From positions 1-64,000 of the forward strand of contig WIXG01000364.1 of NCBI GenBank assembly GCA_009869945.1: a stretch of 64,000 bases of DNA, in the 5' to 3' direction. The notes beneath the pieces were generated by a model, which was not told the origin of the DNA, ran no database searches, and was given only the letters and a program-made list of their open reading frames with translations. This DNA is from Mesaphorura yosii. Lineage: Eukaryota > Arthropoda > Collembola > Poduromorpha > Tullbergiidae. Position numbers and translations under genes: made by a program. Shown here piece after piece: positions 25,380 through 37,495 of the stretch; position 1 is the stretch's first letter; each line of letters begins with the position of its first letter.

Positions 25380-26646
25380 TTAATTTCTCTCTAATCCAAG
25401 CTCCCTGTACAAGTCCAGCGCCCTCAAGAAGTAATAATCCGCAAAATTGAGGGCTGTATCCGCATCTCCACAGCAGGTTCCCGTAGCGTTCACCAGGATA
25501 GAAGGGACTTGGTACGCCGGCCGTCCGTCGGATCGGAAATTTTGTTGCAGCGACTCGAGGATGAGTGTGGAAATCCCGGCGTACATGGAACGACCAGTGA
25601 GTTTGTAAAGGTTGAGGAGAGCAGTGACTCCAATCGCCGCCGCCGAAGTGTCTCGTGGAGTGTAGCCTTGATCCGTGGGGACGTCAAAGTCCCAGTACGG
25701 GACGTAGTCTGCTGGGAGTCGATTCATGAAGAAGAGAGCCATGCGTTCAGCCACTTCCAAGTATCTGCTGTCTCGAGTCAACTCGTACAGCTCCGTGAAG
25801 CCAAAGATACCCCACGCTTGGCCTCGCGCCCACGTGGAGTTGTCGGCGTAGCCTTGCACTGTAAACTTCCTCTCGACTCCGCCGGTGGTCTCGTTGAATG
25901 CGACGACGTGGTAGGAGGAGCCGTCAGGGCGAACAAACTCTTGCAGGGCACGGTTGGCGTGTGACACGGCGATGGTGCGGAAGTACGTCTGATTTAACAG
26001 CTCGTCGGCCTTGAAGAACAGGCGCAGGTTCATCATGTTATCGATGATTACTTTGACCAGGCCTTCTTCCCCGGGGGCGTTTCCCCAAGATCGCGTCACG
26101 CCGCCAAGACCTGAGAGTCAAAAGGGCAAGAACTTAAATACGTAGAGTAGAATATGATTTAAGTTGGAAACTAAAGGCAAAAGGCATGGTTGCTTGTAAC
26201 TTACGGAAATATCGACCGGAGAAAGTCGTTGCTGCCTGCAGAATTGGGCCCTCGAAGTTTCGGTTTCCTGTCAACTCGAGTCCATGCCCGTACGAGCTCA
26301 TGAAGATGAAGCCCAGGTCGTGTGTTCCCAAGTCGAACTGCGCTGCGTGAAGACCAACCTGATTGGTTTCTGCCAAGTTTCTCCATTTCGGGTCACCGGT
26401 CAATTTGTAGAGCATCCACAGAATGCCAGAGTAGAACCCGCACTTCCAGTCGTTCGTCCCAGCCGTCCTCCATGTCGGCGAAGTGGGGATTCCGACGGTT
26501 GGAAACGGACCTGCTGGCGGTACTTGCGAGGCGACAATGTCGTACTTGGAGGCAGTGAACGAAAGGAGACCGTCAATGTCCACTGCGCCATGTGCGAAGT
26601 AGGCGTAAAAGGAAAGAAGAAGAACGGAAACGAAAAGACGCTGCAT
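25380..26646 (-). CDS. GH88 unsaturated glucuronyl hydrolase, secreted
   Basis: Exons 26205-26646 and 25380-26110 encode 390 aa, a normal GH88 length, with a clear signal peptide (MQRLFVSVLLLSFYAYFAHG). GH88 enzymes remove the 4,5-unsaturated uronic acid left at the non-reducing end of oligosaccharides by polysaccharide lyases, by hydrating the double bond. Key elements are visible: HDLGF with D110, matching the catalytic Asp of the bacterial HDIGF motif, DNMMNLRLF with D171, matching the second essential Asp, and the family signature STWARGQAWG (about 239-248). The family is mainly bacterial, with some fungal members. The intron and signal peptide point to a gene adapted to an animal genome. 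It is head-to-head with a PL8 lyase 850 bases away, the enzyme class that makes its substrate. The product is predicted to act outside the cell, probably in the gut lumen. Confidence 0.92.
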
Positions 26647-26784
26647 TGTTTTAGTTTACGTTGTCCAAAAATTAAGTTGAAGAACTTTAAAAGTAGCACA
26701 TTAAATTACTTGTGCTTTGTCAAAATCAGCTGAGCTGAGTTTCTGACTTATTTGACTGAATTGACTTGGTGCCGGTTCCATTCG

Positions 26785-26792
26785 TATTTATA
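26785..26792 (-). promoter_or_regulatory. TATA-like box of the GH88 gene
   Basis: TATAAATA on the minus strand, about 140 bases upstream of the GH88 ATG. Position and sequence fit a core promoter with a leader of roughly 110 bases; the start site was not determined. Confidence 0.45.
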
Positions 26793-27401
26793 TGGCGTAT
26801 TGACGTAAAACTCAAGGGCCAAGATAGCAAGTGTCATTGTCAATTATCATCAATCATCGGGCGTCGGGACTAAATTTTTGGGGCACTAAAATGTTTTCCT
26901 GAAAACAGTGACAAGCAGTTCGTGACGGTCCCCCAAACATCCGTGAATCGGTGCGCTCGATTACTCAATCCTGTCACGTCGGCCTGGCCTTCAGTTAACA
27001 GCAAGTCAAATTGGATTGGATTCATTTCGTGCACCCACTCCGGGACTCTGGACGAACCTCCAACCCGTGCGAGCATGTTTTCAAGCCAATTCAACAACAA
27101 TTACAGCAGAGCAGAGGAACCTGCTTTACAGTCAGCCGTCACGGAACATTGATTGATCGTTGAATCGCAGTTGAATTCCGTCATAAACTTCAAATTAACA
27201 ATTTAATGTTACAATTAGTCAATTACTACAACGTGGTTTACGTGATTTCACATTCACGTTCGCGTCCTCCAGCCATCCAACACTGATACTGATACGAATA
27301 ACACGGTATCAGTACAAATGAGAGCTTGTAATTGAAGCGTTTGATCTCGATTCGATTTGACTCTGAAGTGGATCGAAAAACTCACTACTCAATGGCCTCA
27401 G

Positions 27402-27408
27402 TATAAAA
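27402..27408 (+). promoter_or_regulatory. TATA box of the PL8 gene
   Basis: TATAAAA, about 90 bases upstream of the PL8 ATG. A transcript would start near 27430, giving a leader of about 65 bases. Confidence 0.55.
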
Positions 27409-27496
27409 ACCACTAATTTACAAAGAAAGGAGCATCACTTCGAAAATTCAACTTCAGCAGTTGAATTGTTGTTGAGCAGTTGATAAGCAAAGCACA

Positions 27497-29915
27497 ATGA
27501 AAGCTGTCCACGTATTATTTCTCGCCTCTGGGGCGCTGCTGGCACTAGTATTGGGCCCAGAGGCCGTCTTTGCCCTCCCAACAATGGAAGAACTGCAGCT
27601 CGTTTTCCAGAGACGTCAGATGACTGCTTCTCGGCTGTACAACGACAGCGCGCTGGTCGCCTCCTGGCGGAGTTCGCTGCTACCAAACGGGACGTGGCCG
27701 GACGTCGACTACACTGCGGGCTGCGAGGCGAGGTGAGCCCTTAATTCGATAGTCATTCAGTGACGGAGTCCTGACGTTTTGGGGCCAGAGATTTTGAACT
27801 TCGAACGGTTTCAGACGAGCCGAATGGCCAGCCCAGGACCACGTCATCCGAATCGGCTACCTTGTCTCCGGGTTCTATCAGAACCAAGCCGACACCGATC
27901 TCCTCTCCAAAATCAATCTGGCCATGAACTTCTGGTTTGACAACGAATATCCGCACGAAGACTGCATCAACGGAGGTGGGCGCCCAGAACTGGAGTGCCC
28001 CTGTGGGACGCCCGGTCTCTGGAACACAAACTGGTGGTACGCCATGATTGGGCTCCCAATCAAGCTCGGAGATGCGTGTATCATGTTGGATTCTCACCTG
28101 ACACCTACGCAGCGCAGCAATTGCACCGCACACACTCAACGAGCGTACGTCCGCATCAACGGAGACCCGAACGGCTCGCTGCACAATCACACGGGCGCCA
28201 ATCGACTGGATATCGCATCGTCCGGCGTCGCGTACGCCGTCTTGACGGGGGATCTCGAAGTGCTGGACGACGCCTTTTTCCAGTTTCACGACACATGCCA
28301 GTTCATTCGAGGGAATCTAGACGGAACGAAAGTCGACGGCTCATTCCTGTACCATAACGCCCAGCTTTACTCTGGAAACTACGGCATGCACTTCATCAAT
28401 CAAATGCTCGCCGCAATGATGCACACGTTTGGCACAAGCCTTGAAATACCGCAGAGCAGCAAGGACGTCGTGCTGGCGCTCATCGAGGGATCCGAGTGGA
28501 TGATTTACTTCAAGGGCGACGGAGGGCCGGAAGACGAAGGCTACCTGAATTGGCAGTACGCAAGCTCAGGACGCAAAATCGCCTGGAAATACGAAGACCT
28601 GCACGGTATCAACATCAGCCTCTCGTACATGATTGACGGAACGCAGGGCTGGGACGCCCACGACCGCTTCGTGGCTGTCTCGGAGCGACTCCAGCGACGG
28701 CGGACGGGCTCAGCCAATCCCGGCCCTCTCATCGGTACGAAGCACTTCTGGGTCGCAGACTATTTGGTTCATCGCGGGCAGAACTACGTCGTCAACCTGA
28801 AAATGTTTTCCCCACGAGTCGTCAATACGGAGTGCATCAACGACGAAAACCATCTCGGCTTCCACCTGTCAGATGGCGCCATTTTCAGTTACATACGTGG
28901 AACGGAGTACTACAACGTCTTCGGGGCGTGGGATTGGTACCTCGTACCCGGGACGACGGTCAACTACGGAGCCACTCCGCTTGTATGCGGACAGAGTCGA
29001 TTCCACGGGAAAGAAGCGTTCGTTGGTGGAGTCTCTTACGGTAACGCGGGCATCGCCGTCATGAATTACACCAACCCAATGACCGAGTCTCTGCGCTGGG
29101 CCAAAACTTTTTTTTTCTTCCCGGGCGCGTATGTCGTGCAATACGTTGGAGACTTCGTCGTCGACCCCGATTCGTCAGCGCCCATCGTGACGAATCTCGA
29201 CCAACGACAGCTGGGAAGTGGGGCCGTGTACGTCGACGGAGCGGTGCTGGACTCCACGCAGGCTCGAGTCACTGCACAAAGCATTTACCATGACCGCGTC
29301 GGGTATTCGTTCCAGGCTCCAGTAACGGTCGACATCGACACGACCGAACGCCCATCGAACTGGTCTGCGATTGGGGTCTCCGTCGGATTTGACCCGGAAA
29401 CACTTTTCTCCGCCACGGTGATCCACGATGGGGTTCGGGAAGGCGAGACGTACATCGCGTATTTGGACGTGGATCAGGCCGCATTCGAGCAGCTGGCCAA
29501 GCAGTCCAGGTCGGGTTTGGACTCAGAATCAGAATCTGGAATCAAGATTTTGGGTTCCAAATCGAGCCGTAAGGATTCTCGTTCTCGGGCGTACCCGGAA
29601 GTTCGAGGAGCCACGTACGGGTCCAGCGCCGGAACGGGCGACCGAATCATTGCCCTAGCTTTCTGGGACCCAACAAACTACTCGACGGGTGAAACCGACA
29701 TCACCGCCGTGAGCGTGGATATTCCCTGCGTGGTCCTGCTTACCCGAAAGCCAGGCGGTGCTGGCGCTGGGTGGACCGTAAGCGTGGCTGACCCCAGTCA
29801 GAGGGCTACCAGGCTAAACTTGTCAGTGACGGTGGGCTTCGTTGGCGTGAACTTCCAGCTCGATTTGCCAACCGGCGATTTTGCGGGCAGTCCCGTCAGC
29901 TTAGATTTGACATAA
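27497..29915 (+). CDS. PL8-family polysaccharide lyase, secreted
   Basis: Exons 27497-27732 and 27815-29915 encode 778 aa with a signal peptide (cleavage near AVFA, residue 26). It has the two-part PL8 fold, an N-terminal alpha/alpha-toroid and C-terminal beta-sandwiches. Landmarks are TNWWYAMIGLP (about 150-160), TGANRLD with N208, and DGSFLYHNAQLYSGNYG with H259 and Y268. Asn, His and Tyr are the PL8 catalytic residues, and the nine-residue His-Tyr spacing equals that of pneumococcal hyaluronate lyase. PL8 includes hyaluronate, chondroitin and xanthan lyases; the exact substrate cannot be read here. These enzymes cleave by beta-elimination, leaving a 4,5-unsaturated uronate, the GH88 substrate made next door. 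A Ser/Arg-rich insertion at about 645-670 looks lineage-specific. The family is essentially microbial. Confidence 0.92.
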
Positions 29916-35674: not shown

Positions 35675-36298
35675 TCATGTCTTGATTCCAGCGATTGCAG
35701 CCAACACCTTCGCGTATGCATGCACGCCTTCGACTTCCACTTGCTTTTCAGTAGCGGGCTTTCCGGTTCTACGGCACCAAGCCCTTAGCGGAATCGTTGC
35801 GGCATGCGCCAGAGCATGCGACCCAACCTCGGCGTAACAGGAGACGTGGAATCCGTCAACGATGAGCGTGCCCTTGCCTGTGAGTGGTGCGTACACGCCT
35901 TGGATCGTCCTTGTCTCGATGCTCGTTACTGTGGCCGTTACCGTCGAAACGTCGGCTGCACATGAATCGTCCACGAAAATCAGGTGGTCGCCGACTGAAA
36001 CATCCTTCGCATGAACAGCAACGGCTTCAGATTTCTTAGTTTTAGCGCCGGTCTTCTTGAAGAGCAGGTGCTTCTCGGAAATGATGAGCTCCGCTCCGTT
36101 GTCGCAGGTGAAGACCAAGAATACAGCGTTCAAGCTCGGGTCGTAGTGAAGATATGTACAAAGTGCTGTTTTTGCCAACCCCGTGCCACAGCGAATTTTT
36201 GTGAGGAGTACGTGGCTTGGCTTCAGATCGGCGATCCGAACGTAGCCCGACGTCGTGAGGACCTTCGCGGACGGAGGAAAGCAGCAGCAGCAAGACAT
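35675..36298 (-). CDS. Stand-alone Hedgehog-type Hint (Hog) domain protein
   Basis: A single-exon frame of 207 aa beginning MSCCCCFPPSAKV. It matches the Hedgehog autoprocessing Hint domain from its first residues: a Cys-Phe-Pro start (C6), a conserved internal His (H77 in ISEKHLLF), VSVGDHLIF (about 101-108), and the Hedgehog-specific block GVYAPLTGKGTLIVDG followed by SCYA (134-156). In Hedgehog this domain cleaves the protein just before its first Cys and attaches cholesterol. Here no Hedge signalling domain and no signal peptide precede it. A strong acceptor (tctgtctag) abuts the ATG, and the frame upstream of the likely leader exon contains a stop, so the leader appears non-coding. The sterol-recognition region after SCYA is short. 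It may be a Hog-only gene, a truncated gene, or part of a longer protein spliced from elsewhere. Confidence 0.8.
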   Translation of the reverse strand: MSCCCCFPPSAKVLTTSGYVRIADLKPSHVLLTKIRCGTGLAKTALCTYLHYDPSLNAVFLVFTCDNGAELIISEKHLLFKKTGAKTKKSEAVAVHAKDVSVGDHLIFVDDSCAADVSTVTATVTSIETRTIQGVYAPLTGKGTLIVDGFHVSCYAEVGSHALAHAATIPLRAWCRRTGKPATEKQVEVEGVHAYAKVLAAIAGIKT

Positions 36299-37495
36299 CC
36301 TAGACAGAAGTTAATTCCTAGACTTTGTACAAGTCAGTTTCAGTTTGAAATCGGAATGAAAACGGCTGTTCTTACGTGTATTGTCTTGAGTGCTACGGCA
36401 AGATGCGTTCTTTCTGAAGTCAGGGCCAGCAATGAGACGAGAACTAAAGAAATCGAATGATTTAATCATCTTATGTTTATGCAGAGGAATTGCATGCACA
36501 AACACAGGTACAAGGAGTTTAGCAGTCGACGGCTGTTTCCTAATCGCCATTCATCAGGATTTGTGACGAGTACGTAATAAGTTTGTGTTACGACCTAAAA
36601 ATGTTAATTTCATAATGTGGCAACTGCGACTGCAATTGGAAGGCATGAGTATGAGTCACTCATCACGACACAGCATAGCACCTGCGTCGGTCTCGGCTGA
36701 TTTGGCCGTTGAGGTCATCATTACCTGATTCGGACATGGCGAAATTGTAACTGTAACAATGCAGCAAAGAAGAAAACGTCGCGTGGTCACGTCGAGCCAC
36801 GTCGAGTGTCGAGTCTCCGTCATTGTCAAATTTTGCAATAGTGAATGAATGAGATCCATAAACCGGTTGTTTCTGTCTGCACTTAACTGTTGTAATAATA
36901 TCAGCATCAGCAGTCATATGATTGTTGCGCCTTGCCTAATCTGTAAATTTACTTGTAATTGTCACATATGACGCAGTAGCAGTTCGAGAACAATTCTGAG
37001 ATGCGGGCTAACGAATTAAAGACGACAAGCATTGAATTATGAATTCTAGCCATTCTTGCACACTTTAACTTAACAAATACGTGCAAAAAGCAAAATTGTC
37101 TAAATTGCTTTAAAAAAAGTACGGTTTTTATTCTTAATTCGAGGATTAAGCTAATTTAAGTACCAGGAGTGCTCGTGGCGCATCTGAATTTTTGCACCGC
37201 CAACTCCAACTCCAATTCGTCACTGGCCTCATCCTCCATAATTTAGTTCCATTGCCGGGATCGCCATTAAACACTATTGCTTTTCGACCTTTACAATGGA
37301 TGGATTAAAATCATTCAATATGCTTTTTGGAATTGAAAAAGTCAATCACGCAATCACTTAGGGTTTTAAACATTTAGGTGGAATTTCAATTTCAACCTTT
37401 CCATTTCCATATGCGGGATTCGTAGATAAGTAAAACCCCTACCACTCAGATCCATTTCTTTTCTCCATGGTCGTTCTCGTCGTTGACCATTGCAA
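36299..37495. other. Intergenic, no gene seen
   Basis: AT-rich region upstream of both the Hog gene (minus) and a chemoreceptor-like gene (plus). Small ORFs here have no family resemblance. A probable non-coding leader exon of the Hog gene ends at a GTAAGA donor near 36376 on the minus strand. Confidence 0.45.

Follow-up and report, generated by a model that had tools for sequence, protein, structure and literature searches.

How does an animal come to carry, side by side, a polysaccharide lyase and an enzyme suited to removing the ends that such a lyase leaves? The question is raised by a 64,000-nucleotide stretch of the genome of the springtail Mesaphorura yosii (hereafter the window), in which a GH88-type gene and a PL8 gene stand head to head. 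In this report, we argue that the locus is probably a secreted two-enzyme unit for the digestion of uronans, having a fungal-derived PL8 lyase, a bacteria-like GH88 hydrolase, and glucuronan as its likeliest target. A preliminary description had placed the two start codons 850 bases apart on opposite strands, with one intron in each gene and TATA-like boxes flanking both starts. We reproduced these coordinates exactly (Table 1); each gene model contains a single GT-AG intron, and each TATAAA is accompanied by an Inr-like motif. The spacing from TATA box to the TCA-type motif is 33 bases on both sides. The signal peptides that had been proposed correspond to hydrophobic N-termini on both proteins, as judged by eye.

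Table 1. Positions of the features of the GH88/PL8 locus within the window
Feature	Positions	Strand	Details
GH88-type gene, complete	26646-25380	minus	390 aa; ATG 26646; stop in exon 2
GH88 exon 1	26205..26646	minus	ATG 26646; signal-like hydrophobic N-terminus; D110 codon starts at 26319
GH88 intron	26111..26204	minus	94 bp; GT-AG
GH88 exon 2 with stop	25380..26110	minus	D171 codon starts at 26042
GH88 core-promoter-like site	26754..26792	minus	TATAAA at 26792 (reading down); Inr-like TCAGTC at 26759
Region separating both start codons	26647..27496	unstranded	850 bp; two divergent core-promoter-like sites
PL8 core-promoter-like site	27402..27440	plus	TATAAA at 27402; Inr-like TCACTT at 27435
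PL8 gene, complete	27497-29915	plus	778 aa; ATG 27497
PL8 exon 1	27497..27732	plus	ATG 27497; signal-like hydrophobic N-terminus
PL8 intron	27733..27814	plus	82 bp; GT-AG
PL8 exon 2 with stop	27815..29915	plus	Codon starts: N208 28200, H259 28353, Y268 28380, R332 28572

The lyase matches the Pfam families Lyase_8 (3.9e-60), Lyase_8_N (2.7e-20) and Lyase_8_C (4.1e-6), all beyond the cut-off, and these domains make up the three-part architecture of PL8: an alpha-helical N-terminal domain, a super-sandwich and a C-terminal sandwich. The residues previously singled out as catalytic, N208, H259 and Y268, are all present and, like R332, invariant in an alignment of 13 rows; the four align to the N, H, Y and R of the solved structure 7r2x. 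R332 was absent from the earlier list. We take the catalytic role of these residues from what is known of the PL8 family. An AlphaFold model of the protein (pLDDT 83) has 7r2x as its top match in the Protein Data Bank, the same entry being the best sequence match to solved structures. In Foldseek, the highest-ranking matches are to lyases that act on mannuronate, chondroitin (the AC type), xanthan and hyaluronate, all of them PL8 enzymes.

The hydrolase was matched by phmmer to the solved GH88 enzymes 3wiw (2.1e-61), 2zzr (6e-46) and 1vd5 (2.9e-44). It lies under the cut-off of the Pfam family PF07470 (20.8 bits versus 26.6), and a genome search with that family missed it, returning contig C207 only, where one exon passes (35.7) and the other fails (23.8). 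The proposed catalytic residues D110 and D171 are present and invariant in all 34 of 34 aligned rows. W67, Q233, R243 and W247 are likewise invariant, and H215 is present; the roles of the catalytic residues and their active-site neighbors are assumed from the Bacillus GH88 enzyme. The window copy has F206 and F339 in place of the H and Y of the other rows (33/33), and F142 in place of L (32/33). Because position 206 is V in the aligned streptococcal enzyme, which we take to be active, F206 is not disqualifying. In the GH88 tree, the window copy joins springtail GH88 proteins, then gymnosperm and then bacterial rows. Its clade (support 100/99) includes the “unsaturated glucuronyl hydrolase” of Folsomia candida and the “Glucuronyl hydrolase” of Orchesella dallaii, from which it differs in its long terminal branch (0.71) and an altered C-terminal loop. 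It belongs to a springtail GH88 family with bacteria-like ancestry.

The Pfam families found among the neighboring genes are those of an animal: PDS5/cohesin HEAT, ANKLE2, laminin with a peritrophin domain, cathepsin L, MIF4G, Vps4-type AAA and tyrosine kinase. Genes of this kind flank the pair on both sides. The second open reading frame (ORF) on the ANKLE2 side matched no Pfam family in a scan of eight window ORFs and genome ORFs, and a small ORF following PL8 matched none in a separate scan. ASNA1, another gene in the window, is of springtail affinity. A search for COX1 gave no match.

Elsewhere in the genome, we found at least one intact PL8 copy (on C292) and a relic (on C397), and, for GH88, at least three further genes, of which C207 carries two and C596 the third. 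The position of the GH88 intron is compatible with all four GH88 copies found, and that of the PL8 intron differs from its position in the C292 paralog. These observations bear on whether fungal or bacterial DNA was simply fused to an animal contig. The foreign affinities of both genes would fit such an artifact, but animal genes lie on either side, and the GC3 values of the pair (0.69 and 0.65) are within the range of eight other window ORFs (0.54-0.72). Further, the genes have short introns, TATA boxes with Inr-like motifs, and paralogs on three other contigs, and the window PL8 shares 51% identity with its paralog, versus 33-44% with the Mucoromycota rows among the matches listed. We therefore reject contamination, which we find scarcely credible. 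The proposal of an apparently intact, animal-resident pair of lyase and unsaturated glucuronyl hydrolase is thus borne out by its animal neighbors, introns, promoter-like motifs and paralogs.

Both sequence comparison and trees place two fungus-gnat proteins nearest to the lyase, followed by Mucorales. The top matches are Bradysia odoriphaga HA402_006487 and a Pseudolycoriella hygida “Chondroitinase-AC” (45% and 43%). A PL8 motif scan over 84,980 prokaryote species yielded one distant relative. We built two trees, the first with fungi and one bacterium and the second with fungi only; ten of 12 retrieved proteins went into the second, P0008 and P0024 being omitted. Bacterial GAG lyases were left out, and each tree used only residues 1-780 of protein P0029. 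In the two trees, springtail and gnat PL8 proteins form a single clade (100/100). This arthropod clade sits on the Mucorales branch and not beside the fungi as a whole; Bifiguratus and Gongronella, also Mucoromycota, are placed outside that branch. A topology with Mucorales grouped without the arthropods was not rejected, the AU p being 0.269 in the first tree and 0.347 in the second. A tree joining the gnats with the C292 copy to the exclusion of the window copy was weakly rejected (p 0.034), for a group defined post hoc. By sequence, fold and tree, the window protein is a fungal-clade lyase, similar to PL8 subfamily 4, and its ancestor probably came from a Mucorales-related fungus. The single arthropod clade would also be expected had the gene been inherited vertically from old arthropods and lost nearly everywhere except in this animal and the fungus gnats. 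We regard this history as highly improbable, since it requires numerous losses, the clade sits on the Mucorales branch instead of next to the fungi in general, and no named animal beyond the gnats, and no springtail, appears among the 120 matches listed of 221.

The preliminary description suggested that a functional pair had been acquired or assembled, and likened it to the classic bacterial gene pairing. Here the likeness is one of chemistry only. Acquisition as a functional pair also fails, for PL8 groups with fungi and GH88 with springtail, gymnosperm and bacterial rows. We thus reject the joint uptake of a bacterial PL8-GH88 pair. Because the partners have different sources, the pair looks to have been assembled inside the animal. 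Two genes of unrelated origin would have become head-to-head neighbors, and both would have been retained intact.

An important question is whether this proximity has any functional meaning. PL8 might act on fungal uronan while GH88 serves other lyases, clearing unsaturated uronides of plant, algal or bacterial origin, the two being neighbors by chance. Genome searches found no PL8 beside GH88 on C292, C397, C207 or C596; the linkage is thus not common to the other copies, involving one of two intact PL8 genes and one of the four GH88 genes found. Further, Folsomia has GH88 and no springtail is named among the listed PL8 matches, and GH88 may therefore work there without a PL8 lyase. Among 809 genes that Folsomia acquired by horizontal transfer, 229 encode CAZy domains (PMC5490193); springtail genomes so rich in acquired genes of this type make chance neighbors likelier. 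Against this stand the matching chemistries, the similar promoter-like motifs, and a probability of approximately 0.0006-0.001 that any of two PL8 genes would flank any of four GH88 genes, a figure that assumes 15,000-27,000 genes and covers PL8-GH88 pairing alone, other noticeable pairs being uncounted. We consider chance proximity a serious candidate, though on balance not the probable one.

If the pair does function as a unit, PL8 would cut a beta-1,4-linked uronan by beta-elimination using N208, H259, Y268 and R332, giving products that end in a 4,5-unsaturated uronyl residue. GH88, through D110 and D171, would then take off this end, and the remainder would be digested or absorbed. We infer secretion into the gut, expression and co-regulation of the pair, as well as its substrate. 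The likeliest polymer would be the glucuronan of Mucoromycota walls in the animal's diet. As excerpted, one source puts polyuronide at up to a quarter of Mucor walls and names Mucorales as producers of polyglucuronate; it describes the glucuronic acid of mucoran as alpha-linked to mannose, with the linkage of mucoric acid not given there (PMC6433966).

The sole characterized member of the PL8 clade, PsMan8A (the enzyme of 7r2x), acts on mannuronan and not on glucuronan. The window lyase could instead act on a mannuronan or alginate-like polymer made by soil bacteria, or on a glycosaminoglycan. The PsMan8A report has the enzyme acting on polyM only, and deems alginate specificity unlikely for terrestrial fungal members (PMC7911691). 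The remoter PL8 relatives include chondroitin AC and hyaluronate lyases, but the tree sets the window protein beside Mucorales, the makers of polyglucuronate. With respect to glycosaminoglycans, the streptococcal residues S365, S368 and K370 presumably bind sulfate, and inspection by eye indicates that the aligned stretch of the window GH88 does not keep this pattern. We consider either of these substrates unlikely. A genome search for PF08787 (PL7) gave no match (0 of 14 controls ringing). Another, in which 6 of 14 controls gave a signal, detected no member of the KduI family to process the uronate set free by GH88, this being one of several possible routes. PF14099, which we take to cover the PL20 glucuronan lyases, matches one secreted-looking ORF on C417 (32.7 bits; cut-off 29.9). 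Because phmmer found nothing for this ORF in the Protein Data Bank up to E 10, it is only a lead for an endo-acting partner.

If the pair opens mold walls, the animal would draw such enzymes from its own genome and not only from gut bacteria, and the locus would be a clean case of a pathway joined from unrelated donors. A bolder reading, which we offer as speculation and find rather doubtful, is of a glucuronan unit drawn from two kingdoms, with a lyase from the type of fungus that produces the polymer and a bacteria-like hydrolase under divergent promoters, used to digest mold walls, the same lyase having passed between springtails and fungus gnats. P450 genes are a reported precedent for transfer between these two groups, both of which live in fungus-rich soil; PL8 would be the second gene family oddly common to them. 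Among the open-licence PubMed Central papers listed, we recognized no description of this GH88/PL8 pair or of a springtail PL8, and no paper combined Collembola with GH88.

Several known systems resemble parts of this one. The fungus-gnat PL8 proteins share the clade of the window lyase but belong to Diptera instead of springtails. PsMan8A, an exo-acting polymannuronate lyase of PL8 subfamily 4 from Paradendryphiella salina, is closest in sequence and fold, yet it is a fungal, marine enzyme with 30% identity in structural alignment; the window lyase is a candidate for study of the uncharacterized terrestrial fungal PL8 clade. The glucuronan lyase system of Trichoderma parareesei, reportedly described by Pilgaard et al. 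2022, has a similar target but a fungal owner. Finally, the PL8 and GH88 pairs of bacterial polysaccharide utilization have the same two-step chemistry. In those pairs both donors are bacterial and the genes usually form an operon, whereas the springtail pair combines a fungal-type PL8 with divergent transcription and introns.

Two genes that could together degrade a uronan lie head to head in the window, with 850 bp between their start codons (see the table). On re-checking against the sequence, the coordinates of the preliminary description proved exact to the base for both genes. The signal peptides that it had proposed correspond to a signal-like hydrophobic N-terminal stretch, recognized by eye in both proteins, and its TATA-like boxes to a TATAAA at each gene, followed 33 bases downstream by an Inr-like TCA motif. 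In the most likely mode of action, beta-elimination by the PL8 lyase would cleave a beta-1,4-uronan, after which the GH88 hydrolase would remove the unsaturated uronyl residue from the newly made end.

Features of the gene pair and of related loci (C, contigs of the assembly; L, stretches of them in their own coordinates)
Feature	Location	Coordinates	Strand	Remarks
GH88-type gene	window	26646 -> 25380	minus	intron 26204-26111, 94 bp
PL8 gene	window	27497 -> 29915	plus	intron 27733-27814, 82 bp
GH88 core-promoter-like site	window	TATAAA 26792, TCA 26759	minus
PL8 core-promoter-like site	window	TATAAA 27402, TCA 27435	plus
HINT-like ORF	window	35678-36310	minus
PL8 copy	C292			five exons, 763 aa; intron positions unlike window copy's
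Fucosyltransferase-like ORFs	C292, L014	6283-7404, 8248-9225		tandem
PL8 stretch, probable relic	C397, L032	1985-2209		~76 codons; matches PL8 C-terminus only, 53% to window copy
GH88 copies, two	C207, L016	starts 5265 and 5952	minus, plus	head to head, ~690 bp apart
GH88 copy	C596, L019	4313-5770	minus
PF14099 ORF	C417, L023	1465-2421	minus

The window is part of a 74,310-bp contig in a 93-Mb assembly of 1127 contigs. Its ORFs with domain matches include PDS5/cohesin HEAT, ANKLE2, MIF4G, Vps4-type AAA, laminin B with EGF and a peritrophin domain, and cathepsin L with I29; a tyrosine-kinase domain comes after the PL8 gene. Another ORF resembles, by eye, a hedgehog-type HINT domain. For species placement, the ASNA1 gene, ~13 kb from the pair, was hand-spliced and compared with its homologs. 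A squirrel entry scored highest (60% identity, 73% query coverage), which we take as a scoring oddity; there followed three rows known only by a JGI label (78, 75, and 74%), Folsomia candida (74%), two more JGI rows, Orchesella cincta (75%), and a centipede (72%). These sequence matches and the GH88 tree jointly point to a springtail as the most likely animal. A search for COX1 gave no match.

The window GH88 protein scores weakly against its Pfam model (20.8 bits versus a 26.6 cut-off), and it was absent from the hits when the genome was searched with this model; it nevertheless aligns to solved GH88 enzymes (3wiw over residues 55-385 of 390). The tree of 34 rows includes 19 taken as bacterial (12 bearing a bacterial name, seven unnamed), picked from the best 120 of 7490. 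One clade (support 100/99) unites the window gene, the genome's three other copies, Folsomia, Orchesella, five JGI rows, and one row labeled “lgn”. Three gymnosperm proteins join it (100/99), namely P0129, P0130 (Cryptomeria), and P0131, read as Ginkgo from its Gb_ locus name; the bacterial-type rows lie on the opposite side. Because the tree is rooted at its midpoint, the springtail proteins can be called sister to those of gymnosperms only on the assumption that the root falls within the bacterial rows. The grouping might reflect an unusual donor common to both or a transfer between plants and animals. A single intron position suits all four copies in this genome. The catalytic residues D110 and D171 are invariant in 34/34 rows. 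In the window protein, however, F206 and F339 stand against H and Y in all 33 other rows, and F142 against L in all but one of the 33; these differences count against a simple reading of this copy. A streptococcal GH88 enzyme has V at the residue aligned to position 206.

The origin of the lyase appears to be different. Among the best 120 of 221 homologs inspected, the nearest two are fungus-gnat proteins (45% and 43%), the remaining organism-named rows are fungi as far as read, Mucoromycota first (33-44%), and the unnamed rows include P0114, from a eukaryote transcriptome. Two motifs of the PL8 clade, scanned against 84,980 prokaryote species, hit 60 stretches, only one of which encodes a relative, an Anaerolineae MAG protein (24%). 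In a first tree of 33 rows (30 picked from those 120, two from this genome, one bacterium), the genome's two copies form a pair (99/97) that groups with the gnat rows P0001 and P0002 and the gnat-like P0012 (100/100), on a branch holding Mucorales rows (100/100). A second tree of 37 rows, with six dropped (the bacterium and P0114 among them) and ten added, gave the same groupings (98/96, 100/100, 100/99). Bifiguratus and Gongronella, also Mucoromycota, fall outside that branch; thus, more than one PL8 line exists in these fungi. Whether the arthropod clade lies inside or beside Mucorales is not distinguished by the AU test (p 0.269 and 0.347 in the first and second trees).

Genome searches found two intact PL8 and four GH88 genes, of which one of each is linked. 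The chance of any such contact is ~0.0006-0.001, assuming 15,000-27,000 genes and uncorrected for other pairs that could equally have drawn attention. The GH88 search listed no match on the contig of the second PL8, near which two ORFs look, by eye, alpha-1,2-fucosyltransferase-like. In terms of constraint, the two PL8 copies differ at pN 0.337 versus a saturated pS of 0.76. Upstream of the C397 stretch, further PL8-like letters are visible by eye in another frame, and this is probably a decayed third copy. The paired GH88 genes on C207 share 74% identity, with dN far below dS (0.177 versus 1.378). At its C-terminus the C596 protein carries a Thr-rich stretch and a hydrophobic tail that would suit a membrane anchor; by eye, the end of its JGI relative P0125 is also hydrophobic.

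Springtails eat fungi, and we infer the PL8 substrate from phylogeny and diet. We do so because, in the source passages available, the linkage reported for mucoran is other than beta-1,4 and mucoric acid appears without a stated linkage, and because the only characterized enzyme of the fungal clade is described as exo-acting on polymannuronate (PMC7911691). The same passages consider alginate specificity unlikely for terrestrial members of the clade (PMC7911691). A secreted-looking ORF on C417, possibly an endo-acting glucuronan lyase, exceeds the cut-off of the polysaccharide-lyase family PF14099 (32.7 versus 29.9 bits); a PDB search with an E limit of 10 gave nothing for it.

P0001, P0002, and P0012 are the nearest relatives of the genome's PL8 copies in both trees. 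The gnat Bradysia coprophila is credited, in a paper citing the finding, with 28 alien P450 genes, 17 of them traced to springtails (PMC12051294), and the gnat-springtail PL8 clade would fit such traffic. The gnats stand beside, not inside, this genome's copies, and the tree therefore leaves the direction of transfer unset. Foreign carbohydrate enzymes in springtails are of a known kind, since 809 genes of Folsomia are reported to be of horizontal origin, 229 of them with CAZy domains (PMC5490193). Beside that precedent, what is new, as far as literature searches show, is a fungal-type PL8 in this animal and its pairing with GH88.
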